DNA of 64,000 nt from Streptomyces hiroshimensis. GTDB lineage: Bacteria; Actinomycetota; Actinomycetes; Streptomycetales; Streptomycetaceae. Under the pieces are notes generated by a model. It was not told the origin of the DNA and did no database searches. It saw only the letters and a list, made by a program, of their open reading frames with translations. Every line of letters begins with the position of its first letter. Positions within the stretch are counted from its first letter, which is position 1. Below are positions 50,719-63,742 of the stretch, one piece after another. The stretch spans positions 673,037 to 737,036 of the forward strand of contig NZ_BMUT01000001.1 of assembly GCF_014650335.1 (NCBI RefSeq), written 5' to 3'. The position numbers and the translations under genes are program-made.

Positions 50719-52434
50719 TCACCGCATGAGGTGCGCGGCCCGTTCCGGTAGGCGTAGGGCCGGGCGTAAGCGGGGGTGCAGGGCGGCTGTCGCCAGGAGC
50801 CGGCCTGCTCGGGCGTGGGCGTCTTCGGGGTTGCGGCGCAGGGCTTCCGCGTAGCGGGGGAGCGCGGCGGCGGGGTTTCCCGCGCACAGGTGTTCGTCGG
50901 CGGTCTGCGGGTCGGTGAGCAGGGCGGGCGGGAGGCCGTAGAGCCGGACGCGGTCGTCGTGCCAGATGCCCTGCCGGAGGCTGCCGGTGATCTGCGTGGT
51001 GCCGGTGGCGGGGTCCCAGCGCAGGTTGCGCAGCCGCCATTCGACGAGGTGGCTGCGGGCCGCGGCGCGTGCCCGGCGGACGACGGAGGCGTCCAGGGGG
51101 TGCCTGAGCCACGTGTCGAGTGTCGCCGCCAGGCCGTGCACCAGGCGGCGGCCGACGGGGGTCAGCCGGGCGTGGTGCAGCAAGGTGGACACGGCGTGGC
51201 GGCAGTGGAGGCGGCGCAGGGCGAACTGGAAGGCGGCCGTGGCGTGGTGGGGCCCGCCGAGCCGGTCGTGCCAGAAGCCGGCGACGCCGGTGAAGGCGTA
51301 GGCGCCGTGCAGCAGGCCGGTGAGGTGACGGGGATCCGGGCGCCACGGGCTGTAGTACAGCTCGGCCCGGTCGTCGTCGAGGAGGGGGAAGAGGTGCATG
51401 ATCGCCCCGAGCTTGCTGTGCTGGAGTTCGTGCACGAGCGTCTCGGCGAGGGCCAGGCCGTCCGGGGGACGGGACAGCACCATGGAGCCGTAGGCATCCG
51501 CGGTGGAGGCGCTGCGGACGGGGATCCGCTCGCCCCCGGCCGAGGCGAGAGCCGCTCCCCAGGGGACGAGGCAGCGTATGTCGGTGAGGACCGGTCGGCC
51601 CGGACCCGGGGTGGTGTGGCCGGCCAGGATCTCCACCGCCTCGTCGAAGACCGCTCGCCAGGCTTCGAACGCGGTGCTGTCGAGGGGCTCCGGCGGCACC
51701 GGGTCGTCGAGGTTGCGGTACGGGTCGAGGTCGTCGAGCGGCACCCGGCCGTGGCGGTCCACGGTCCGCAGGGGGAGCCAGCCGGCCGATCGGCCGGCTC
51801 GCAGCGGTTCGACGGTGAGGGACTGCGCGCCGCCGGTGAGGTGGAGCGTGCCGTTACGGACTTCCGCCCGTGCTGTGGTGTACGGCGATGCGGACGCACA
51901 GCCGGGCAGCCGGGCCAGGCCGAGCGTCGGCAGTGCGATCTCCCCGTTCCGGACCGGGACTTCGGTGGACCCGTCCACGCCGGCCCGCAGACAGGCCACC
52001 ACGGACAGGGCGTGCAGGTGCCCGGTGTCCACCCACAGCGGCGGCCCGCCGGCCGTGCCGTGCAGGCGGCGCAGGGCATGGGCGATCCAGTTGCCCACCT
52101 GGGGCGCGCTCAGCAGCTCTTCCACCACCGGTGGCCGGTGGCGGGCGGCACTGCTGATGGCCTCCCAGGCGGTCGCCGCCGGGGGGAGCGGCTCCAGCGT
52201 CCCCGGCTGTTCCTCCAGCAGGTCCAGGAGTTCACCGAGGAGCAGCAACCGGCGGGAGCGCTCGCCCCTGGCCAGGAACGCGGACTCCCGCGCGGATCCG
52301 CCTCCGGAGGCCAGGGCGTCGAAGCTCGCGCCGGGCAGGGTGAGCGACGGCTGCGGCTGCTGTCCGGTGCCGGGCGGCGTCACCCGGCCTTTCCCGGGCG
52401 GCGTCACCGGGCCCACCCCGGAAGGCGGTGTCAC
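50719..52434 (-). CDS. HExxH-motif peptide-modification protein (TIGR04267-like); TTA codon
   Basis: Protein of 571 aa. The N-terminal segment (LTLPGASFDALASGGGS...) and the metal motif HELQH (H335, E336, H339 in ETLVHELQHSKLGAIM) mark the mod_HExxH family, which accompanies FxSxx-COOH peptides and radical-SAM/SPASM proteins and is linked to post-translational modification, not proteolysis. The C-terminal 90 residues are TPR-like (CAGNPAAALPRYAEALRRNPEDAHARA). Leu556 is a TTA codon (50767-50769), a bldA mark. The GTG start overlaps the FxsA-like stop (GTGA). The first 25 residues (repeated V-T-P-P-G) come from a 24-bp tandem repeat. No FxsB-type radical-SAM gene is in the window. Confidence 0.82.
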   Translation of the reverse strand: MTPPSGVGPVTPPGKGRVTPPGTGQQPQPSLTLPGASFDALASGGGSARESAFLARGERSRRLLLLGELLDLLEEQPGTLEPLPPAATAWEAISSAARHRPPVVEELLSAPQVGNWIAHALRRLHGTAGGPPLWVDTGHLHALSVVACLRAGVDGSTEVPVRNGEIALPTLGLARLPGCASASPYTTARAEVRNGTLHLTGGAQSLTVEPLRAGRSAGWLPLRTVDRHGRVPLDDLDPYRNLDDPVPPEPLDSTAFEAWRAVFDEAVEILAGHTTPGPGRPVLTDIRCLVPWGAALASAGGERIPVRSASTADAYGSMVLSRPPDGLALAETLVHELQHSKLGAIMHLFPLLDDDRAELYYSPWRPDPRHLTGLLHGAYAFTGVAGFWHDRLGGPHHATAAFQFALRRLHCRHAVSTLLHHARLTPVGRRLVHGLAATLDTWLRHPLDASVVRRARAAARSHLVEWRLRNLRWDPATGTTQITGSLRQGIWHDDRVRLYGLPPALLTDPQTADEHLCAGNPAAALPRYAEALRRNPEDAHARAGRLLATAALHPRLRPALRLPERAAHLMR

Positions 52435-52458
52435 TCGGCCCTTCCCGGAGGGGTGTCC
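52371..52458. repeat. 24-27-bp tandem repeat across the FxsA-like/HExxH gene junction
   Basis: Units start at 52371, 52395, 52419 and 52446 (24, 24, 27 and a partial). They encode the N-terminus of the HExxH protein and, in another frame, the last residues and stop codon of the FxsA-like peptide. Confidence 0.85.
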
Positions 52459-52607
52459 ACGGAGGCCCGCCCGCGCGCCCGCCGCACCTCCTCGAGCAGG
52501 CGGCCGGCCCGTAAGGACCGCGGTACGGACCGCAGGGCGGTGATGTCCACGCGGTCCAGGTCGGCCAGGTCCGACGTCAAGCGGTCGGCGCGCGCGGGCT
52601 CGTCCAC
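52431..52607 (-). CDS. FxsA-like small peptide (candidate modified precursor); TTA codon
   Basis: 58 aa from a GTG at 52607 that has GGGGGAC seven bases upstream; an in-frame ATG at 52700 lacks a ribosome site. The core DLADLDRVDITALRSVPRS and the following LRAGRLLEEV have the length, position and D-L-x-x-L pattern of FxSxx-COOH precursors, which are always encoded next to the HExxH gene. The family's C-terminal Phe-x-Ser-x-x is absent: the peptide ends in S-V-D-T-P-P-G-R-A-E, encoded by the tandem repeat. One leucine is a TTA codon (52512-52514). It overlaps the HExxH start by 4 bp (GTGA). The identification is an inference from context plus weak sequence pattern. Confidence 0.55.
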   Translation of the reverse strand: MDEPARADRLTSDLADLDRVDITALRSVPRSLRAGRLLEEVRRARGRASVDTPPGRAE

Positions 52608-52737
52608 TGAGCGTCCCCCATTTCGTGCACGGATCGCGGGTCGTAGCCCATCCCGAGCGTTCCGTTCATCCCTGAATTCGTCCCTGAACGTGGTACCCAT
52701 GATGGCGACGTCGAACCGGTGTTGGAAGCCCGTACGA

Positions 52738-53844
52738 TCATCGCAGACCGCTTTCCTGCAGGGCGATGCAGGCGAGGACGGCCGATTCCAGCCGGGCGGC
52801 GAGCTCCTCGTCCGGGTCCAGCAGGGTCACGGCGTCGTAGAGCAGCCACAGGCCGCCGGGGACCCGCCGGAGGCCCAGGTAGACCGCCGTGGCGTCGGAG
52901 CGGGGGTCGCTGCCCCGGTTCATGGTCTGGACGGCGGGCGTGTCCAGGAGGCGGACCATGATCTGCCGCTGTGCCGGATCCGCCATGAACGGGTAGGCGA
53001 GCAGGGAGTCGATCAGGTGTGCCCTGACCCGCCCGGGCCGCACGGCGGCCGGCTCGGGCCGCACGGTCTCCGTGCGGTCCGCTCCGTGCAGCACGATCCG
53101 CGGCAACTGCCCTGTGTGTCCGGCCAGTCGGAGCTCCGCGATCCGTTCGCGCACCCGGCGGAACAGGTTCTCGACCTTGGCCGGACCGGCGGCCTCCCCG
53201 GCGTCCGTCTCCTCCTGGAGGATGTCGAGCACCGCGGCCGAGAACAGGCCGGTGGCGCGCGCAGGGTCGTTCGCGGCGCGCTGGCCCCGGTCGGCGGCGA
53301 GCATGAGCACCTGCTGGTGGACGTTCTCCCGCTTGCCGAGGGGGAATTGCTCCCCGGGCAGCGCCTGCAGGTGGCCGTGCTCCTCGGCGAAGGTCTGGCA
53401 GGCGTCCACGACCCAGATCTGGCGGGTCAGCCCGGGGACGGCGTCGCTGGCCAGATGCCTGCGAGCGGTCTCCAGGTCGAGATTGCGCTTGTCGGAGACG
53501 GTGGCGTCGGCCGTGAACAGCCGGATGTGCTCGTCCTCGGCGAGCATGCCGTGGCCGCCCCACCAGACCCACAGCACATCGCCGTCCAGGCGGGGCAGCC
53601 GGGTGACCAACCGGTGGCGGAGGGAGGCGTGATCGGCGCGCTCGTACGCCACCTGCGGGGTGAACCCGGCGGCCGGCGCGAGATGCAGCATGATGTTCTG
53701 CTCGGGGACGCCGCGCGTGCGCAGCCAGTCCCGGAAGCGCAAGGCGTCCCGGGCGGGGCCGGGCAGGTCCCACGAGGGGCCGGCGGCGTACTGCTCGATA
53801 CCGACGACAAGGGCGAAGACCCGTTCGGGCGGCGGAGTGGTCAT
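52738..53844 (-). CDS. Caspase-like protease with C-terminal effector-associated domain
   Basis: Protein of 368 aa. Residues about 8-240 are a C14 caspase/metacaspase-like domain with catalytic His98 (VWWGGHGM) and Cys149 (VVDACQT). Residues about 275-365 are a small helical domain (PFMADPAQRQIMVRLL ... RSDATAVYL ... GGLWLLYDAVTLL) of the effector-associated type. The same pattern is seen at the N-terminus of the VMAP protein at 62270-63742, so the two probably bind each other. On activation it would cleave cellular proteins and kill or arrest the cell. Its ATG overlaps the hydrolase stop (ATGA). Confidence 0.88.
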   Translation of the reverse strand: MTTPPPERVFALVVGIEQYAAGPSWDLPGPARDALRFRDWLRTRGVPEQNIMLHLAPAAGFTPQVAYERADHASLRHRLVTRLPRLDGDVLWVWWGGHGMLAEDEHIRLFTADATVSDKRNLDLETARRHLASDAVPGLTRQIWVVDACQTFAEEHGHLQALPGEQFPLGKRENVHQQVLMLAADRGQRAANDPARATGLFSAAVLDILQEETDAGEAAGPAKVENLFRRVRERIAELRLAGHTGQLPRIVLHGADRTETVRPEPAAVRPGRVRAHLIDSLLAYPFMADPAQRQIMVRLLDTPAVQTMNRGSDPRSDATAVYLGLRRVPGGLWLLYDAVTLLDPDEELAARLESAVLACIALQESGLR

Positions 53845-55112
53845 GTGAGTTCCCCGGCGATGGCCGCGTACACGGCCGGGTTGGTCCAGTAGGCGCTGTG
53901 CGAGGCGGGAAAGGGCTGGCGGTTGTCGACGGCGACGTCCCGGACCCTGCCGGGGAAGAGCGGGCCGCCGACGTGGGAGAGGAGATCGCGGCGGTCGTAG
54001 AGGTTGAGCCAGGGCGGGAAGTGCCCCGGAAGCCCGGCGGGGTGGCGGAGACTCGGCAGCGCGCCGATCTCGTAGAGGAACGGCGCCTGGGATCCCACGG
54101 TGACCAGCAGCCGTACGGCCGGGTGGGCACGCCCGGCCAGGGTGTCGAAGGCGATGATGCCGCCCAGGCTGTGCCCCATGACGGTGACCGGGCCTTCGAG
54201 GCCGTCCAGCACCGCACGCAGCCCCTGCCGTACGGCTTCGCCGTGGGCGAGATAGCGCAGGACGTCCCCGGCGGCGGGGTGCGCGGCCTCGGTGAGGGCA
54301 CGGCGACGGCGCACCGCGTACCGGAACCCGGCCCGCGCGAAGGGGCGCAGCAGGAACGCACCGGGACCGCGATCGGTGCCGGCCGGCGGTGCCCCCATGG
54401 CCGCGGCGAGCGCTTCGACGGCCCTGTCACGCTGTTCCCCGTCGGGTATGACCGGGGCGTCCGCGTCGAGGAGCGAGCGCAGACAGGTCGCGGCCACGGC
54501 GCGGGCCAGGAGGTGCTCCAGTGCGCCGCTCCCGGGGCCGGTCCCGGTCCCGGTGCCGCCGGACGCGAGGGCCCGGGCCGCCGGGCCCAGCAGCGGGCTG
54601 CGCGAGACGTCCCCGGCGGCGCGGCGGAGACCGGGCAGCAGCGCCTCGTTCACCTCGGGCGAGGACGCCAGGCGGGCGAGGAGGAGCCGGGGGGCCTCGG
54701 CGGGATGCGGGGCGCCGGGCGGGAGTTCGGCGCGGGGTACGGCGCCCGAGGGGGCCGAGGCAGCCGCCTCCCTGAGCTCCGCCAGCGGGTCCTCGTACAG
54801 CAGCTCCCACCGGTCGGTCTCGCCGTCGGAGGCCGCGCTGTCCCTACCCCCGTCCCGGCCACCGCCCCCGTCCCTGCCCCAGCCTCCGTCCCCTTCTGCC
54901 GCCCCGGCGCCGGGCACGCCGCGCGCGGTGCCCTCGGGGGGCAGGCTGGCGCCGCCCGCGGCGAGGCGCGCCCCGTGCTCCGTACCCCAGTAGTACGGGA
55001 TGACCGTCACCCCGGGCGTTCTCTGCGCCAGTCCGTCGCCGACCCGTTGGAAGAGCTCCTCGAACCGAGGCTCCCGGACCCCCGTTCCGTGGACGAAGAC
55101 CACTGCGACCAT
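53841..55112 (-). CDS. Alpha/beta hydrolase (lipase/esterase-like), probable effector
   Basis: Protein of 423 aa. VVFVHGTGVREPRFEELFQRV at the start (oxyanion HG), nucleophile Ser315 in VTVMGHSLGGIIAFD, an Asp in WLNLYDRRDLLSHVG and a His in FPASHSAYW complete a plausible triad. A low-complexity Gly/Asp/Ala insert lies at about residues 66-95. No signal peptide, so it acts in the cytosol, possibly on membrane lipids or acylated partners. Encoded first in the caspase operon, so it may be a second effector. GAAGAAGG precedes the ATG. Confidence 0.85.
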   Translation of the reverse strand: MVAVVFVHGTGVREPRFEELFQRVGDGLAQRTPGVTVIPYYWGTEHGARLAAGGASLPPEGTARGVPGAGAAEGDGGWGRDGGGGRDGGRDSAASDGETDRWELLYEDPLAELREAAASAPSGAVPRAELPPGAPHPAEAPRLLLARLASSPEVNEALLPGLRRAAGDVSRSPLLGPAARALASGGTGTGTGPGSGALEHLLARAVAATCLRSLLDADAPVIPDGEQRDRAVEALAAAMGAPPAGTDRGPGAFLLRPFARAGFRYAVRRRRALTEAAHPAAGDVLRYLAHGEAVRQGLRAVLDGLEGPVTVMGHSLGGIIAFDTLAGRAHPAVRLLVTVGSQAPFLYEIGALPSLRHPAGLPGHFPPWLNLYDRRDLLSHVGGPLFPGRVRDVAVDNRQPFPASHSAYWTNPAVYAAIAGELT

Positions 55113-55242: not shown

Positions 55243-56562
55243 ATGAGCCCGGATGCGATGCTCACGCATTTCGTCGGCGCAGCGGCCGTCGTGATCGTGG
55301 TCGCCCATGGTGCCGGCCGGCTGGCGCGGTGGCTGCGCCAACCCGTGATCGTGGGGCAGCTGGTCGCCGGAATCGCCCTGGGGCCGACGCTGCTCGGCGC
55401 CGTGGCCCCCGCCGCGGCACGGCAGCTCTTCCCGTCCGAGATCGAACCGATGCTCAACGCGCTCTCCCAGCTCGCGCTGATCGTCTTCCTCTTCGCGGTG
55501 GGGTACGAGCTCGACCTCTCGATCCTCAAGCAGCGCGCGCGGACGGTGGTGACGGTGTCGCTCGCGGCCTTCCTCGTGCCCATGGCCACGGGCACCGGAG
55601 CAGCGCTGCTCTTCCGCGACGAACTGACGCGGCTCGGTGCGCCCGCCGGCATGCCGGTCTCCGCCGTGCTGTTCCTGGGCGTGGCGCTCTCGATCACCGC
55701 GGTGCCGGTCCTGACCGCCATAGTCCGGGAGAACGGGCTGGCCGGAACGCTGCCCGGCGTGATCGCCGTGTCCGCTGCCGGACTCATCGACGTGATGGGC
55801 TGGACGGTGCTCGTCGGCGCCCTGCTCGACGCCGGCGGGCACGGCGGTGAGCCCCGTGGCGCACTGCAATTGGTGCTCGGGCTGCTCTACGCCGCGGTGA
55901 TGCTGCTCGGAGCGCGACCGCTGCTGCGCCGGTTGCTGTGGGGCCGTCATCTGGATGCCTCGTACCGTCTGGCGGTGCTGGTGGGTTTCGCCTGTGCCTC
56001 GGCCTGGGCGACCAGTGCCCTGGGCCTGCACGTGATCTTCGGTGCCCTGCTGGCCGGCGTGGTGGTCCCACGGGAGGCCGACGGGACCCTCGACGCCGAG
56101 CTGGTGCGGCCGCTCAACGACGTCTCAGGTCTGCTGCTGCCGTTCTTCTTCGTCATCTCGGGCAGCCGGGTATCGGTCGGCTCGCTGAACGAAGCGGGTC
56201 TCGTCGCCCTGGTGGTGGCCACCTCGCTCGCGGTGCTGGCCAAGGTGGGCAGCGGACTGGGTGCTGCGAGGCTCTGCGGAGTGGGGCGCGACGACGCCCG
56301 CACCATCGGCGTGCTGCTGAGCGCCCGGGGCCTCACCGAGCTGATCGCGCTCAACGCCGGCCTGCAAGCCGGGCTGATCACCGGGCGGCTGTACGCGGTG
56401 TTCGTCCTCATGGCCCTGGTCACCACGGTCGCGACGCAGCCGCTGCTCGCCCTGGTGCGGTGGCTGGCCGGCCGCACCCGGCCGCCCGCGAGGGACGGGG
56501 GGTACGGGGACAGCCCCGACCGGGCCGGGCCGGTCACGGCCCCCAGTCCGGGTTCCGGCTGA
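55243..56562 (+). CDS. Cation/proton antiporter (CPA2, Kef type)
   Basis: Protein of 439 aa with about 12 hydrophobic helices. QPVIVGQLVAGIALGPTLLG, FLFAVGYELDLSILKQ, VLFLGVALSITAVPVLTAIV and LLPFFFVISGSRVSVGSL are typical of Na+(K+)/H+ exchangers of the CPA2 group; no RCK/TrkA-N domain follows. It exchanges monovalent cations for protons. It sits between the two halves of the conflict locus on the opposite strand; it could be an unrelated insertion or a membrane component tied to them by the shared repeat region. Confidence 0.92.
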   Translation: MSPDAMLTHFVGAAAVVIVVAHGAGRLARWLRQPVIVGQLVAGIALGPTLLGAVAPAAARQLFPSEIEPMLNALSQLALIVFLFAVGYELDLSILKQRARTVVTVSLAAFLVPMATGTGAALLFRDELTRLGAPAGMPVSAVLFLGVALSITAVPVLTAIVRENGLAGTLPGVIAVSAAGLIDVMGWTVLVGALLDAGGHGGEPRGALQLVLGLLYAAVMLLGARPLLRRLLWGRHLDASYRLAVLVGFACASAWATSALGLHVIFGALLAGVVVPREADGTLDAELVRPLNDVSGLLLPFFFVISGSRVSVGSLNEAGLVALVVATSLAVLAKVGSGLGAARLCGVGRDDARTIGVLLSARGLTELIALNAGLQAGLITGRLYAVFVLMALVTTVATQPLLALVRWLAGRTRPPARDGGYGDSPDRAGPVTAPSPGSG

Positions 56563-56644: not shown

Positions 56645-56707
56645 CACACCAGTCATACCAGTCACACCAGCTACAGCGGCTACGCCAGCTACACCGTCTA
56701 CAGCGGC
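56645..56707. repeat. 9-bp tandem repeat spanning the FxsT-like gene stop
   Basis: Seven imperfect units (CACACCAGT, CATACCAGT, TACAGCGGC and similar). The TAG stop of the minus-strand gene (56698-56700) lies inside. Confidence 0.8.
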
Positions 56708-59700
56708 ATCGGCGCGATATCGCATTCGATGCGCCGGTGTGCCTTGACGGCCTCCAGCCAGTAGTGCCCGGCCCGGACGCATCGCGACAGCGTGTCCACC
56801 GCCTTCGTGTGCAGTGCGTCGGCCTCCTGGGTCCGCCCCAGAGCCCGCAGGTCCAGCGCGAGATTGGCCCGGCAGCACTGGGTGACCGGATGGTCCGGCC
56901 CGCAGACCTCCTCCAACTCCCCGAGTGCGGCGGAATCCACGGCATGCGCGGCGGCGAAGTCGAGGCGTGCGTAGTGGTTGTTGGCCACACCGAGGTCACC
57001 GATCAGCGTGGTGACGTGCCGGTCGCCCAGGGTGGCACGCAACCGCCTGCCCGCCTCGCCGTCCAGTTCCTCGGCCTTCGCGTGACGCCCCAGGGCCCGC
57101 TCCGTCCCCGCCAGGTTGAGCATGGCGGCGAGGGCGAAGGGGTGGTTCTCGCCGAGCGTGGCGCGGTACCGGCGGACGGTGTCCTCGCCGAGCTCCTGCG
57201 CGGACTCCAGATCTCCCTGGAGCCGCCGGTCGACGGATACGTTCATCGCCGTGGCGAGGGTGTCCCGGAAGTCCAGGCCGTACCGGTCGGTGAACCGCTT
57301 GAGAGTCTCCTCGCTCAGCTCGGCGGCCTCCGCCAGCGATCCGTCACGACGACGGCACACGGCCAGATTGCGTGCCGCACGCACGGTGGCGGCGTTGTCG
57401 ACGCCGTTGACCGAGGCCATCACCCGGTAGGTCTCCTCCTGGAGCTTGCGGGCGGCGGGATAGTCGCCGCTCTCACGGATGTCGATGGCCAGTCCGTTGA
57501 GCGTGTTGAGGGTGAGGCCGCTGTTGGGCCCGTACAGCAGCTCCCACTGCCGCACGGTCTCCTCGTCCAGCTCCCTGGCCTTGGCGAACTCGCCGCAGAG
57601 CCGCAGCGACACCCCGTAGCTGTGAGCGGCCTGGAGCGCCCCGGGGTCCTCCGGGCCGAACAGGTCCAGGGCCCGGCCGGTGGCCTCGACGTCGAGGTCA
57701 CGTGCGGCGTGGAAGTCCCCGCGGTAGCGCAGCGCACCCGCCATCTGCCACATGGAGTCGATGAGCTCCTCCTCGGGCACCCCGGGGCGCCGGGAGATCT
57801 CCAGCGCCTGCTCGTTGAGCGTGTGCGCCTCCTCGCCGATGCCCAGCAACCGCAGGAAATAGGCCAGGAGTTTGCCCATCTGCAGGACCTGGGTGTCCTC
57901 CTCGCCCGACTGGCCGAGCCAGGCGGTCCACGCCTCGCGGGCGAGCGACGCACCGGTCTCGTGCGCACCCCAGTAGTAGAGGTAGAAGACGATGTCGTTG
58001 ATGAGCTCGCGGACCCACGGATCCTCGCTGTGGACGGCCCCGGAGACGATGACGTGCGGCAGCAGGCTCTGGTACGCGCCCCACTGGTCGGAAGCGTGCG
58101 GAGCACCCGGTTTGGCCGCCGCGAGCAGGACGTGCGCGGCGTGGCGCGTTTGGGCGGCCTTCTCCGGGGTCATGGCCTCCAGCAGGACGGCCTGCATCAG
58201 CCGGTGCATCTGCAGGGTGCCCGTACCGTGGTCGAGTTTGATGAGCGAGAGCCGGTTGAGGTCGCGGGTGGCGCGGCCGATGAGCACGGGGTTGCGCAGC
58301 ACCGGGTCGAGTTCCGGCGAGATCTCGATGGCGCGGGAGGCGCGCAACGCCGAGATCGGGATCGGCTCCGGCGACATGCAGGCGCAGATGTCCAGCAACT
58401 GGCGGGAGGCGGGGTTCGACCCGGCGAGGCTCTCCAGCGAGATGTTCCAGGCCGCGGCCACCGAGACCGGATAGTCGGGTGCGGGATCGAGGTGGAGGAT
58501 GCCCGGGGTGCGTTGCTCCAGCAGCTCGACGTACTCGGCCACCGGCATGCCCGTGGCGGCGATCCAGGCGCCGGCCTGCTCCACGGCCAGCGGCAGGTCC
58601 CCGAGCGCCTCGGCCAGCCGGTCGGCGTCCTGCGCGTTCATGGAGCGGGCCCGCCGCTGGAGCAGCGCCACGCTCTCCGCCCGGGTGAACACGTCCACGC
58701 TGAGCGGGGGGACGATCCGCTCCCACTCGCGGTTGCGCGAGGTGATCAGGATCTTGCCGGGGCCGTCGGTGGGGAAATAGCGGCGTACGACGTCGATGTC
58801 CTCGGCGTTGTCGAACACCAGGAGCCAGTTGTCGTACGGCTTTCCGCTGCGCAGCGCCTCACGGACCGCCGGGACGGTGGTGTTGGCCTGCGGGCCGACC
58901 TCGAGACCGAGACGCCGGGCGAGCTGCGAGAGGGCCCCGAGGATCAGGCTCTCCTGCTCCGCGGGAATCCACCAGACGACGTTGTACTCGTGGCTGTGGC
59001 GGTAGATGTACTCGATGGCCAGCTGGGACTTGCCCACCCCGCCCATGCCGTGCAGCGCCTGCGGCAGCACGGCGGTGGTTCCGTCGCCGCGCAGCTGCTC
59101 CTCGATCTCCCGGAGCAGGCTCTCGCGGCCGGTGAAGTTGGGGTTCTTCTGCGGGACGTTTCCCATGACCGCGGGCCGGCCGGTCCGGGTGATCCAGGTC
59201 TCCGAAGTGTCGCGCTCCATCTGTGGCTCAGCCTTCCGGTCCTCGGTGATCTGGGATGTCGGGTGCACAACGTCTCCTGGAATTTCAGGCGTGCCGGAGG
59301 GGTCCGGGTCTTTCGCCTCATGCATGCCCAGCGAAGAATCTTCGTTACCCCCTGAGCGTTCTTCGTTACTCCCCGGGCGCGCGCCCGGTGTGTCCCCGAG
59401 GGAGCCCAGCTCCGCCGCCGCGCGCCGGGCGAGCTCCGCGACGCGCCGGGTGTACGGACCGGACAGCGCGCGCAGCACGGCCATCTCCACCCGGAGCCAG
59501 GCCTGTCCGGCCTCGGAGACCTCGGGCAGGGCGACCGAGTCCGGTGCGCGCAGGACGGCCTTGAGCCGCCCGCCCCGTTCGCGGCCGTCCCGCAGTTCCG
59601 CGAAGTTCGCGACGACCCGGGCGAGCTGGCTCCTGGTGTCGAGGGCGAGCAGGGCCTCGCGGATGCCGTTCGCGAAGTCGGGACCGCCCTGATCAGGGGT

Positions 59701-61149
59701 GCGCCAGTCGATCAGCCCGCCCATGAGGATCTCCGAGAGGTGATCGGGCGACGCCTGCGGCAGCATGCGGTGCCGCAGTTGTTCGATCAGGTTGAACTCG
59801 AAGGGCAGGGCGGCGATATGGGTGGCGAGCTGCCGCGCCGTCGGGGTGGCCAGGGAGGCGAACCGGCGCACGGCGCGGGCCGCCGCGGCGGGTGAGTCGG
59901 TCCGGGGGGTGCGCAGGCCGGGGGCCGCGGCGGCGGTCGGCAGTTCATCGGGGAAGATCACCGGCAGTTGCCGGACCAGCCCCGACTCCCCGGTCACCAG
60001 CTCGGCCCAGAGTTCGAAGGCGGCCGGATTCAGGCTCAGGACGGGGACGGGGAGCATCCGGCCGGGGCCGGCCGCGGACGGCATGGGGCGGGTCGGATCG
60101 CCGCCGACGGACGGATCCCCGTAGCCCATGGCCCGGTTGGACGCGCCGAAGCCGCCCGACTCCAGCCGGCCCGGGCGGGGGCGGACGGAGGAGCGGTGCC
60201 AGAGGTAGGTGGGCAGCAGATGCACCAGTGCGGTGGGACCCGCCTCGGATAACCGGTGCAGGAGCCGCTGCGCTCCGGCTGCCGTCCACTCCGCTCCGAG
60301 GCCGTCGGTCACCAGCAGGAACACCCGGGTGCCCCGGCCGTCGATCAACTCGGCGGGATCCGCCGTGCGATGCCCGGGCAGCCGCAGGGCGGCCCGGTCG
60401 GGCGCGAGGGTCAGGCGGACGGTGCGCACGTCACGGAAGGCACCGCTGCGCTGCGCCTCGGTCGCGATCCGCTCCACTTCCCGGGCCCAGACCGGCATCG
60501 TCGGCCCGTCGTCCGCGAGCACCACCAGATCGAACGCCCGCTCCGGCTCGGGCCGCAGGTACGGCATCCACAGTCCGTCGATGATGCCGTGCCGGGCGGT
60601 GCGTTCCTCGTCCAGCTCCGTCCGGTGCCGGGAGGGGACCCGGTGGCCGAGCCGGTGAAGTGCCTTGGCGAGGAGCGACTGGTTCCGCTGGTTGCGCTGG
60701 TTCCGTACGACGGGGACGGCAGCAGCCGGATCCTCCGGTGGAGCAGAGGAGTCGGCACCCACCGCGACCGGCACCTCGGCCACGTACGGTGCCGGCTCCG
60801 GATCCGCCGGGGGCGCACTGCCGGTCGCAGTCGCCGCCGGAGCCGGTGTCGGTTCCTCGGCCGCGGCAGGGGGCATCACGCTCGCCGGAGCAGGCGCTTG
60901 CGCCGTGCGTGCGCTGCCGCCGGCCGGCGGGTGAGGAGGGTCGTGGGCCGAAGGGCCGACGGGGGAGTGCTCCAGCCAGGCCGCGGTCAGCCAGACGGCA
61001 TCGGCGTATTCCCGCCACTCCGCTTCCTGCCACCCCGGTTCCTGCCACTCCGGCTGCCCGGTGCCGGCGCCCGGGCCGTCCGGACGGGCCGGGCGATCCT
61101 CCTGTGCATCACCGGGGAGGGAGTCTCGCTCTCTGGGCGTCCCGGTCAT
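56698..61149 (-). CDS. fxsT: SAV_2336-type vWA-like + NB-ARC + TPR protein (FxSxx-COOH system TPR protein); TTA codon
   Basis: Protein of 1483 aa. After a Pro/Ala-rich start, residues about 200-560 form the SAV_2336 N-terminal-type domain, with a vWA-like strand VVLADDGPTM (213-217, a degenerate metal site) and LLVTDGLG. Residues about 660-1000 are an NB-ARC STAND ATPase: GMGGVGKSQLA (Lys707), WLLVFDNAED (Walker B), ILITSRNREW and GDLPLAVEQAGAWI. Residues about 1010-1470 are TPR repeats (GRTQEADALH, GRHAKAEELDGEA). STAND proteins of this layout sense a ligand through the repeats, oligomerise with ATP and switch on effectors. Leu300 is TTA (60250-60252). Its ATG shares a base with the MoxR stop (TGATG). 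Confidence 0.88.
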   Translation of the reverse strand: MTGTPRERDSLPGDAQEDRPARPDGPGAGTGQPEWQEPGWQEAEWREYADAVWLTAAWLEHSPVGPSAHDPPHPPAGGSARTAQAPAPASVMPPAAAEEPTPAPAATATGSAPPADPEPAPYVAEVPVAVGADSSAPPEDPAAAVPVVRNQRNQRNQSLLAKALHRLGHRVPSRHRTELDEERTARHGIIDGLWMPYLRPEPERAFDLVVLADDGPTMPVWAREVERIATEAQRSGAFRDVRTVRLTLAPDRAALRLPGHRTADPAELIDGRGTRVFLLVTDGLGAEWTAAGAQRLLHRLSEAGPTALVHLLPTYLWHRSSVRPRPGRLESGGFGASNRAMGYGDPSVGGDPTRPMPSAAGPGRMLPVPVLSLNPAAFELWAELVTGESGLVRQLPVIFPDELPTAAAAPGLRTPRTDSPAAAARAVRRFASLATPTARQLATHIAALPFEFNLIEQLRHRMLPQASPDHLSEILMGGLIDWRTPDQGGPDFANGIREALLALDTRSQLARVVANFAELRDGRERGGRLKAVLRAPDSVALPEVSEAGQAWLRVEMAVLRALSGPYTRRVAELARRAAAELGSLGDTPGARPGSNEERSGGNEDSSLGMHEAKDPDPSGTPEIPGDVVHPTSQITEDRKAEPQMERDTSETWITRTGRPAVMGNVPQKNPNFTGRESLLREIEEQLRGDGTTAVLPQALHGMGGVGKSQLAIEYIYRHSHEYNVVWWIPAEQESLILGALSQLARRLGLEVGPQANTTVPAVREALRSGKPYDNWLLVFDNAEDIDVVRRYFPTDGPGKILITSRNREWERIVPPLSVDVFTRAESVALLQRRARSMNAQDADRLAEALGDLPLAVEQAGAWIAATGMPVAEYVELLEQRTPGILHLDPAPDYPVSVAAAWNISLESLAGSNPASRQLLDICACMSPEPIPISALRASRAIEISPELDPVLRNPVLIGRATRDLNRLSLIKLDHGTGTLQMHRLMQAVLLEAMTPEKAAQTRHAAHVLLAAAKPGAPHASDQWGAYQSLLPHVIVSGAVHSEDPWVRELINDIVFYLYYWGAHETGASLAREAWTAWLGQSGEEDTQVLQMGKLLAYFLRLLGIGEEAHTLNEQALEISRRPGVPEEELIDSMWQMAGALRYRGDFHAARDLDVEATGRALDLFGPEDPGALQAAHSYGVSLRLCGEFAKARELDEETVRQWELLYGPNSGLTLNTLNGLAIDIRESGDYPAARKLQEETYRVMASVNGVDNAATVRAARNLAVCRRRDGSLAEAAELSEETLKRFTDRYGLDFRDTLATAMNVSVDRRLQGDLESAQELGEDTVRRYRATLGENHPFALAAMLNLAGTERALGRHAKAEELDGEAGRRLRATLGDRHVTTLIGDLGVANNHYARLDFAAAHAVDSAALGELEEVCGPDHPVTQCCRANLALDLRALGRTQEADALHTKAVDTLSRCVRAGHYWLEAVKAHRRIECDIAPMPL

Positions 61150-62273
61150 CAGCGGCCTTTCGCGAGGTCGCGCAGGAGTATCTCGATGAGCTTACGCCCG
61201 GCCTCGTCGTCGTGAAAACCGCCCGATGCGATCAACTGCACGGCGTTCAGGAGCTGGTCGACGGTCTGCGTACCACCGGCGGCCACGCTCTTCTCGAAGT
61301 GGTCCAGGAGTCCCTCGATGCCCTCCGGCCTGCGCCGCAGATGACTGACCACAATGGACACCAGCTGCTCACGGCTGGGCGGGCGCAGCTCCAGGGGCAG
61401 GCACCGGCGCCGGAAGGCGGCGGGGAACTCCCGCTCGCCGTTGCTGGTGATGATCACGACGGGGAACTCCCGGCACTCGACCCGGCCGCCGTGGACCACG
61501 GCCCGGCCGCCCGGGTCGTCGGTGACGACCACGGTCTCCCGCTGCGGGCTGCGGACGAGCTCGGGAATGTCGTAGCAGCCGTTCTCCATCACGTGGAGCA
61601 GGTCGTTGGGCAGGTCGATGTCGCTCTTGTCCAGCTCGTCCACCAGCAGCACGCGGGGACGCTCGTAGGCGAGCAGGGCGGTGCCGAGGGGGCCGAGGGT
61701 GACGTAGTCGCCGATTTCGGGGGCCTCCTCCCGCTCCTCGCCCGCCCGCCAGGCCGCGATCGCCTGGGCCCGGCCGATGGAGTCGTAGGCGTAGAGGCCG
61801 TCCTTGAGCGTGGTGCGGCTGACGACGGACCAGGGCAGGACCCGGCCCAGGCCCAGCTCCCGCGCCACCAGATAGGCGAGGGTGGACTTGCCCACGCCCG
61901 GAGGCCCGCTGACCAGGATCGGCCGGCGCAGCAGCAGCGCGGCATTGACCAGGTCGACCTCCTCCTCCCGTAACTGCGGCCTGGCCCCGGCGGTGCCCAG
62001 GCGCCGCTCGGTGGCCCGGGGGTCGTCGCCGGGCGGCGGCTGGAGCGGCTCGCCGCCGAACTCGCGCCAGGGCGGCGGCGCGGGCAGAGGGGCAGGCGTC
62101 CCGGAGGGGGCGTCCCCCGTAGCGTGGAAGATCCGCCAGCCGGGCGGTGCGGACGCCGCGGGCGAGGCGCCGCGGCTCCCGGGCATCCGCAGGGGATCCG
62201 GCATCCGCAGGGGATCCTGCTCGTGCGGGCCCTCCGCCCTGCGGGGATTCCCCGCTGCCCCCGTCTCCGTCAT
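61149..62273 (-). CDS. MoxR-type AAA+ ATPase of a VMAP system; TTA codon
   Basis: Protein of 374 aa. A Pro-rich N-terminal tail (about 90 residues) precedes the AAA+ core: Walker A GPPGVGKS (Lys129), Walker B VLLVDELDKSD, sensor 1 VVIITSNGEREFP and the arginine finger region AFRRRCLPLEL. MoxR ATPases with vWA partners act as chaperone-like switches; in this context it links VMAP sensing to effector activation. Leu101 is TTA (61971-61973). Overlaps the VMAP gene by 4 bp (ATGA) and the FxsT-like gene by 1 bp (TGATG), so the three are coupled. Confidence 0.92.
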   Translation of the reverse strand: MTETGAAGNPRRAEGPHEQDPLRMPDPLRMPGSRGASPAASAPPGWRIFHATGDAPSGTPAPLPAPPPWREFGGEPLQPPPGDDPRATERRLGTAGARPQLREEEVDLVNAALLLRRPILVSGPPGVGKSTLAYLVARELGLGRVLPWSVVSRTTLKDGLYAYDSIGRAQAIAAWRAGEEREEAPEIGDYVTLGPLGTALLAYERPRVLLVDELDKSDIDLPNDLLHVMENGCYDIPELVRSPQRETVVVTDDPGGRAVVHGGRVECREFPVVIITSNGEREFPAAFRRRCLPLELRPPSREQLVSIVVSHLRRRPEGIEGLLDHFEKSVAAGGTQTVDQLLNAVQLIASGGFHDDEAGRKLIEILLRDLAKGR

Positions 62274-63742
62274 GCCGGAACCTCCTCGTCCTCGTGGTCA
62301 TGCACGGCGTCCCGGTCGACGAGCCGGTACGGGTCGTCCCACAGGACCGCTATATGCCTGCCCAGCTGGCCGGCTCCGTCCGCATCGGCCGCCGCGGCGA
62401 TCCGCTCCCGGTACACCTGATACGGCAGCCGGCGGACCGCATGCGACAGCAGCTGCCGGACCGTGGCACCGGTCTCCGCGGGCCAGCTCTCCCTGCGGTC
62501 CCAGATGGCGACACCGATCCCCTCGTACACCGCCTCCCGCAGCGCGGGCAGCGCCTGCCCCTCCACCGCCGCCCCCCGCAGCTCGACCACGGCGATCCTG
62601 CCGTCGGCGCGCAGCCCGGCCAGCCAGTCGGCCCGGCCGGAATCCTGCTGCCGCCAGATCAGACGCTGCGCGATGTCCCCGCTGTGCGCGACCTTCCAGC
62701 GCTCGCGCCACAGCCGCATCTGGCGCGAGCTCGCGTTGCGCATCCGCTCCAGGCTGCGCAGGTGCACGCCGTACGCCAGCCCCAGCGGAAGCGGGGAAGC
62801 GCCGCCCTCCGCCACGTCCAGGGCCGCCATGTCGAGGTTCAGCAGGTGGAACGGAAGGATGAACTCCACGTACGCGGGGATCTCGTGATCCGATTCCGGG
62901 GTCTGCGCCCACAGCGCGTCCCCCCGGGCGAGGGCCTGGCCGACCGCCCGGTGCAGCTGGTGCGGCGCGACGGTCACGCAGTCGCCCTGCCGGGGCGCCC
63001 AGACCCCGGCGACGTCGTTGATCCAGTGCCGCACATGGATCTCGCCGGTGCCGTCGCCGGCGGGCTCGACCATGACCACCAGGCATTTGGGGACCGAGGG
63101 GTCGCTCCGGCCCTCCGCCATCTCGGCGCGGCGCGCGGCGAGGGCGGCGGCCCCGCCCTGCGATCCCGCCCAGTCCTCGCAGGCGGGCCTCAGCCGCTGC
63201 GCCAGCTGTCCGTTCACCTGGGCGGCGCATTCCAGAAGGACCACCGCGGGGGGCACCCCGTCGGGCTGTGCCGCGTGATCCAGGAGCTCGTCGAAGAGCG
63301 CGGGGGCCGCCAGGTCGGCAGGCAGGTCCAGCCCGGTCCACCGGGCCGTGAGGTCCCGGAGCCTCCGGGACTCGGCCTCCGTGAGCTTCCGCAGCACCTC
63401 CCGTACCTGGGCCTCGGTGTGCTCCTCGAAGAGACCGGCCGGCAGCACGGGCGGGGAGAGCGCGCGCAAGAGGTCGTCGGCCGCGGCGTCGCCGCACAGC
63501 AGGCGCACGGCACTGGTGAGCGCGTCGACCCCCCGGGGCTGCGACAGCGCGCCACGGGCGATGCCGAGGAGGTCGGACCGGATGGTCTTGCGAAGGCACT
63601 CGACCGGCTTGGCCAGGCCGTCGCTGACGAGCTCCGCGAACCAGACCCGCTGATCGGGATCGCTCGCGAACTCCAGCTCGGACAGCAGCGTGACCGCACT
63701 GCTCAGGACTGCGACATGGACCGGTGGTGTTCTGTCGTGCAC
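62270..63742 (-). CDS. VMAP protein (vWA-MoxR associated) with N-terminal effector-associated domain
   Basis: Protein of 490 aa from a GTG (ribosome site GGGAAGG). Residues about 10-85 are a small helical domain with F-A-S-D-P-D-Q-R (25-32), a following RSDLLGIARGAL and PRGVDALTSAVRLL, matching the C-terminal domain of the caspase at 52738-53844. The C-terminal half fits VMAP-C (AYVEFILPFHLLNLDMAAL, RRESWPAETGATVRQLLSHAV). VMAP proteins, with MoxR and vWA partners, form ternary conflict systems with protease effectors. It has no TTA codon, unlike the two genes behind it. Confidence 0.82.
   Translation of the reverse strand: MHDRTPPVHVAVLSSAVTLLSELEFASDPDQRVWFAELVSDGLAKPVECLRKTIRSDLLGIARGALSQPRGVDALTSAVRLLCGDAAADDLLRALSPPVLPAGLFEEHTEAQVREVLRKLTEAESRRLRDLTARWTGLDLPADLAAPALFDELLDHAAQPDGVPPAVVLLECAAQVNGQLAQRLRPACEDWAGSQGGAAALAARRAEMAEGRSDPSVPKCLVVMVEPAGDGTGEIHVRHWINDVAGVWAPRQGDCVTVAPHQLHRAVGQALARGDALWAQTPESDHEIPAYVEFILPFHLLNLDMAALDVAEGGASPLPLGLAYGVHLRSLERMRNASSRQMRLWRERWKVAHSGDIAQRLIWRQQDSGRADWLAGLRADGRIAVVELRGAAVEGQALPALREAVYEGIGVAIWDRRESWPAETGATVRQLLSHAVRRLPYQVYRERIAAAADADGAGQLGRHIAVLWDDPYRLVDRDAVHDHEDEEVPA

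Follow-up and report, generated by a model that had tools for sequence, protein, structure and literature searches.

An intact RxD-type precursor and its predicted alpha-ketoglutarate-HExxH partner in a VMAP conflict-system operon of Streptomyces hiroshimensis

The locus and its homologues

The window, by which we mean the whole stretch of 64,000 nucleotides of S. hiroshimensis that was analysed, contains a short gene that overlaps the start of a gene for an HExxH protein. Both belong to the following set of features:

50719-52434, minus strand: predicted alpha-ketoglutarate (alpha-KG)-HExxH enzyme (TIGR04267, 165.9 bits against a cut-off of 40; HELQH and PWRxDxR intact)
52431-52607, minus strand: precursor gene of the RxD type, 58 aa, GTG start (recognised by its ORF, homologues and selection)
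52434-52445, minus strand: codons for G-R-A-E, consensus [G/A]RA[D/E]-COOH, a proposed recognition or cleavage tag (69 of 75 precursors)
52738-53844, minus strand: caspase-like peptidase with GGHG and DAC motifs and a C-terminal EAD2 domain
53841-55112, minus strand: alpha/beta-hydrolase, the caspase's partner in VMAP systems
55243-56562, plus strand: CPA2-type Na+/H+ antiporter, present in 34 of 94 homologous loci
56698-61149, minus strand: protein with a SAV_2336-type N-terminal domain, NB-ARC (AP-ATPase) and TPRs (NF040586 FxSxx_TPR, 841 bits)
61149-62273, minus strand: MoxR-type AAA ATPase
62270-63742, minus strand: VMAP protein with EAD2, VMAP-M0 and VMAP-C (111 bits)

Transcription of the operon follows the minus strand in the order VMAP, MoxR-type ATPase, SAV_2336/NB-ARC/TPR protein, alpha/beta-hydrolase, caspase-EAD2, precursor and HExxH enzyme, and most homologous loci on sufficiently long contigs show the same succession of genes. 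The antiporter gene sits on the opposite strand within the operon, between the SAV_2336/NB-ARC/TPR gene and that of the alpha/beta-hydrolase. By its position, the protein encoded at 56698-61149 is the presumed vWA component, and no Pfam vWA match was reported for it. Judged by these domain assignments, the operon represents a ternary conflict system of the VMAP-MoxR-vWA kind, predicted to serve bacterial immunity, in which the EAD2 domain carried by both VMAP and the caspase suggests that the two proteins may bind each other. PADLOC returned the caspase model and weak ATPase matches only.

Searching 247 genomes of the genus with the window protein gave clear homologues in roughly twelve of them, and an alignment of the HExxH protein (A1) added 80 named loci. 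At 77 of these 80, a profile search located a small precursor gene just before that of the enzyme; at the remaining three, the HExxH protein was matched at the edge of a contig. Counting that of the window, 75 distinct precursors were compared, and flanks were scanned in 94 homologous loci (stored flanks of up to 10 kb, shorter where contigs end). At E 0.001, the A3 profile matched in three of the 396 phylum genomes searched, that of the window among them, so that in this sample the family is largely one of Streptomycetaceae. Plasmids, when searched, yielded fragments only. One homologous locus (L045, 13270-15650, in genome G066) is a degraded copy, in which the caspase is matched in part and the match to HExxH falls into two reading frames.

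The precursor and its C-terminal tail

The sequence-only reading had described a 58-aa gene that overlaps the HExxH start and ends in S-V-D-T-P-P-G-R-A-E, and this gene stands as described: its stop codon, TGA, runs into the GTG start of the HExxH gene in a shared GTGA, and a GGGGGA stretch is found 6 nt 5' of its own GTG. A mechanical list of ORFs gives a longer frame of 89 aa from an ATG at 52700; the GTG start is preferred and the longer frame is ruled out because the equivalent GTG of S. netropsis (L052) is immediately preceded by an in-frame TGA. The HExxH proteins of the two species are 84% identical in their best segment, and the precursor genes differ by 11 synonymous and 5 non-synonymous changes (dN/dS = 0.17). 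The precursor ORF is real and coding, and both copies are under purifying selection. A unit of 24-27 bp, present in about three copies at 52370-52451 of the window, spans the end of the precursor gene and the start of the HExxH gene; it yields VTPP repeats at the N-terminus of the enzyme and is absent in S. netropsis.

The precursor is laid out as a helical leader with the motifs SDLaDL and RLLeEvRRxR, a short linker and the C-terminal GRAE. Its predicted structure, of low confidence (pLDDT 70), has a helix at residues 30-48 and an unstructured tail. The helix ends with RRxR, two arginines of which are invariant in an alignment of 23 precursors.

The family is constrained at its extreme C-terminus. 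Sixty-nine of the 75 distinct precursors end in [G/A]RA[D/E] (GRAE in 29, ARAE in 22, ARAD in 16 and GRAD in 2), an ending found at 4 of 16,922 other ORF ends of the same loci. The tail is conserved in Streptomyces, Kitasatospora and Streptacidiphilus. The final residue is Asp in about a quarter of the family, and the window precursor belongs to those that end in RAE. Position -4 is occupied by Ala in 38 precursors and by Gly in 35 (together 73 of 75), the other two having Ser and His. When the 71 tail-bearing rows are placed on the enzyme tree, parsimony requires at least 12 switches between Ala and Gly at -4, while the terminal Asp/Glu switched at least four times. Six different codons encode the Arg at -3 across the family, which indicates that selection acts on the protein. 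It was also considered that the tail might be conserved merely through its overlap with the next gene; this was rejected, since the spacing between the stop of the precursor and the codons for the enzyme's FDELA stretch ranges from 35 to 190 nt across loci. The tail is altered at five loci where the HExxH motif is intact (SQAH, GGGA, HEAA, GLAD and GWAV), and the precursor of a distant relative (L049) ends in KRFD.

Small ORFs with a similar SDLxDL leader and different C-termini are also found upstream of other HExxH genes, and this pattern, in which the leader stays constant while the ends change, fits a division into leader and substrate. The second VMAP/HExxH locus of the genome (L136, 8754-8993; about 306753-306992 of G000:C9) encodes a 79-aa precursor whose leader, SDLVDLSGVSL, is similar to that of the window. 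It has a two-cysteine end, PLCQSEMTPPCGG..., with the terminus PLCQSEMTPPCGGAARAQSGSRP, and relatives in G087 and G017 keep PLCxxxMxxLCG; such an end falls outside the four published types. Two more precursors with an SDL/ELxDL leader, just upstream of HExxH genes at L198 and L217, end in FNPSYDD and GDPKSSASM and possibly represent the acidic type and another one.

The HExxH enzyme and the question of FxsB

The HExxH protein matches TIGR04267, a family now named alpha-KG-dependent peptide beta-hydroxylase, and shares with two solved relatives both the HExxH motif and the PWRxDxR stretch downstream of it; its C-terminus consists of TPR-like helices. The AlphaFold model (mean pLDDT 79) superposes on SjiH with a Z score of 22.8 (rmsd 4.9 over 378 residues) and on the ChlH domain with a Z score of 16.9 (rmsd 5.6 over 285 residues), the next row having a Z of 9.9. 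Both the family match and the SjiH/ChlH fold make a metallopeptidase label unlikely. On these comparisons of sequence and model the protein belongs to the alpha-KG-HExxH oxygenase family, and oxygenase activity is predicted for it. A third TIGR04267 match of the genome (L137, 9183-10163, on G000:C15) is a short stand-alone HExxH protein near two methyltransferase-like genes, and no RxD precursor was noticed beside it.

FxsB occurs in 154 of the 247 genomes of the genus. The window has none, as the sequence-only reading had stated, and the wider search that it had proposed gave no match above the model cut-off anywhere in the genome (best 83.8 bits, cut-off 370); nor was an FxsB-type radical SAM domain found in the stored flanks, of up to 10 kb, of the 94 homologous loci. 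The same reading had gone too far in giving the gene an FxsA-like core, a likeness for which profile searches offer no support. The window precursor has no NCBIfam match, one of 23 family members matches the FxSxx-COOH model (E 0.0059), and a profile-profile comparison with FxsA gave a probability of 2%, the FxsA profile being built from only three rows; homology of the core with FxsA is at most weak. The other proposal of that reading, a branch whose HExxH enzyme works alone, with no FxsB, and at another residue, has gained support from the family-wide tail and from the absence of FxsB near the 94 loci.

Proposed reaction, alternatives and known systems

A precedent for an enzyme of this family that acts on such a tail is found in Pseudomonas. 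PosC and PflC (PMC12636437) are alpha-ketoglutarate HExxH enzymes that recognise a C-terminal ARMD, hydroxylate their precursor and remove the ARMD, the cut being proposed to proceed via the alpha-carbon of its Ala and to leave an amide behind. With PosC, a first tail residue of Ala allows cleavage, Gly allows it in part, and Ser, Val or Gln prevent it, while Ala in place of the Arg, the Met or the Asp is tolerated (PMC12636437). A position -4 restricted to Ala and Gly, with free exchange between them, is what this chemistry predicts. Given that PosC tolerated Ala at the other three positions, something else, such as docking, must keep RA[D/E] conserved.

An intact and conserved precursor, the constraint on its tail, the absence of FxsB, the family and fold of the enzyme and the operon are directly supported; from these we infer the substrate relationship, the reaction, the release of the peptide and the role of the precursor-enzyme pair. 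Their best explanation, to which we give a probability of roughly one half, is that the gene encodes an RxD precursor whose leader is bound by an alpha-KG/Fe(II) HExxH enzyme working without FxsB, and whose C-terminus becomes amidated by cleavage of the PosC/PflC kind. The enzyme would bind the helical leader (SDLaDL...RLLeEvRRxR) and act on the C-terminal [G/A]RA[D/E], where abstraction of a hydrogen atom at the alpha-carbon of the Gly or Ala at -4, followed by hydroxylation and collapse, would release alpha-keto-acyl-Arg-Ala-Glu/Asp and leave a C-terminally amidated product (...VDTPP-NH2 in the window). The operon caspase may then cut after the conserved RRxR, and the resulting short amidated peptide may feed the AP-ATPase/TPR protein.

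In metacaspases, an Asp two residues before the Cys goes with specificity for Arg or Lys. The DAC motif has an Asp in this place, so the caspase could cut at RRxR. Removal of the leader by the caspase is a suggestion and not more, because the precursor model is of low confidence and about ten loci (L062, L063, L067, L069, L071, L080, L082, L087, L089 and L118) show neither a caspase nor an alpha/beta-hydrolase in their stored flanks, although VMAP, MoxR, the TPR protein, the precursor and HExxH are present. A scan for a GDSG-type motif found no obvious trypsin as a substitute, and the notion of the caspase as an obligatory leader protease is not supported, since several otherwise complete loci (e.g., L063, L069 and L080) show neither of these two genes in the flanks. 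More tentatively, the conflict system, one of immunity or programmed death, may make an amidated signalling or toxic peptide, the lone HExxH enzyme removing the tail oxidatively and the caspase releasing the peptide; the RxD motif would then be a tag for oxidative cleavage, in common with the ARMD precursors of Pseudomonas.

It has to be considered whether the enzyme only beta-hydroxylates a side chain, either that of the terminal Asp/Glu or that of a Pro before the tail, leaving the backbone uncut and using the tail as a binding motif. Asp, His, Gln and Pro are hydroxylated by characterised alpha-KG-HExxH enzymes, in the case of PesO a Pro that precedes a C-terminal R(V/T)DN (PMC13060819), and a Pro is present at -5 to -8 in 53 of the 75 precursors. 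However, it is missing in the other 22, and the restriction of -4 to Ala or Gly is left unexplained. The sequence-only reading had proposed that small genes beside HExxH genes be compared for a conserved acceptor residue; the comparison brought out the tail, kept in 69 of 75, and no conserved D/N/Q/H/P acceptor in the linker of the 75 distinct precursors. An invariant Pro, Asp or Gln was sought there as a hydroxylation site and none was found. With these observations, we regard side-chain hydroxylation without cleavage as rather unlikely.

A zincin metallopeptidase that releases the C-terminal peptide by hydrolysis was proposed by Kaur et al. (PMC7159879), citing Haft and Basu, and PflC does hydrolyse ARMD off a leaderless substrate (PMC12636437). 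Nevertheless, PflC leaves the leader-bearing substrate unhydrolysed even without oxygen (PMC12636437), and the fold and sequence of the window enzyme match solved alpha-KG-HExxH structures, all of which renders simple hydrolysis improbable. An equally improbable role for the small protein is that of a structural adaptor or regulator whose tail docks in the active site of HExxH as an inhibitor and not as a substrate: the protein is indeed small, helical and charged, its extreme C-terminus is fixed, and none of the conserved genes of the 94 homologous loci was recognised as a RiPP-type transporter, but the protein shows the usual layout of a RiPP precursor, with a conserved part resembling a leader, a linker both variable and disordered, and an end under constraint. 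The last alternative, decay of an FxsA precursor with loss of the FxSxx end, could appeal to the lack of an FxsB above cut-off in the genome and to a genuinely decayed precursor at another locus (L093, around 9889, with a premature stop immediately before KEGARAE), and it is refuted for the window gene, an intact precursor, by the purifying selection on it, by a tail kept across three genera and by the absence of an FxSxx end from all 75 distinct precursors. Close relatives with that end and a nearby FxsB, which the sequence-only reading would have taken as a sign of simple decay, were not found; those that were have neither.

Taken together, these observations make of a gene suspected of decay a clean candidate pair of substrate and enzyme, composed of two overlapping genes, a constrained four-residue tail and a published precedent for the reaction. 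If the amidation reading is true, oxidative cleavage to a C-terminal amide would be the first chemistry for the RxD class of VMAP systems and would explain their independence from a radical SAM enzyme, and the amidated peptide would be a candidate for the signal or toxin predicted by Kaur et al. (PMC7159879).

The FxSxx-COOH system (FxsA-FxsB; TIGR04268, TIGR04269) resembles that of the window in having HExxH and FxSxx_TPR genes together with a short precursor; it differs in its FxSxx end and its FxsB, and similarity between the leaders is not supported by profile comparison. The pes cluster of nitrilobacillin (PMC13060819) also has an alpha-KG-HExxH enzyme that acts beside a C-terminus with Arg and Asp, R(V/T)DN, although there the Pro is beta-hydroxylated without cleavage and the cluster includes a nitrile synthetase and an MNIO. 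With PosA/PosC and PflA/PflC (PMC12636437), the likeness lies in the enzyme family, at the level of the shared IPR026337/TIGR04267, and in the precursor end, A-R-x-D in those systems, a small residue opening the tetrapeptide in both. Those systems have an NHLP leader, a Gln run, an MNIO-nitroreductase and transporters, whereas the window has a conflict-system operon and its precursor lacks both the NHLP leader of PosA and the Gln run; the reaction was shown there, while here the parallel is one of motif. Since the text of that preprint mentions neither RxD nor conflict systems, the mechanistic link drawn here between RxD precursors and PosC/PflC, through removal of the tail and amidation, appears to be new.

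The system itself is already known. Kaur et al. (2020; PMC7159879) describe VMAP ternary systems with a peptide-processing unit of the FxSxx, RxD or acidic type, the AP-ATPase being fused to the vWA protein in the last two; the radical SAM-SPASM gene goes with the FxSxx type and the RxD type has no radical SAM. The HExxH protein is called a metallopeptidase there, and the peptide is predicted to be a signal or a toxin. The window fits this "RxD motif type": VMAP lies next to the MoxR ATPase, the protein that is the presumed vWA component by its position carries AP-ATPase/TPR, the alpha/beta-hydrolase accompanies the caspase, and the HExxH gene goes with a small, diverging precursor and without a radical SAM-SPASM gene. 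The divergent branch envisaged at first is accordingly supported but not novel, as those authors had already named it. As for the motif, R-x-D is represented at the level of the family by R-A-[E/D] in 69 of 75 precursors, and that of the window ends in RAE and not in RAD. The second difference from the type concerns the HExxH protein, a metallopeptidase in that account and, by family and fold, a predicted alpha-KG oxygenase in the present one.
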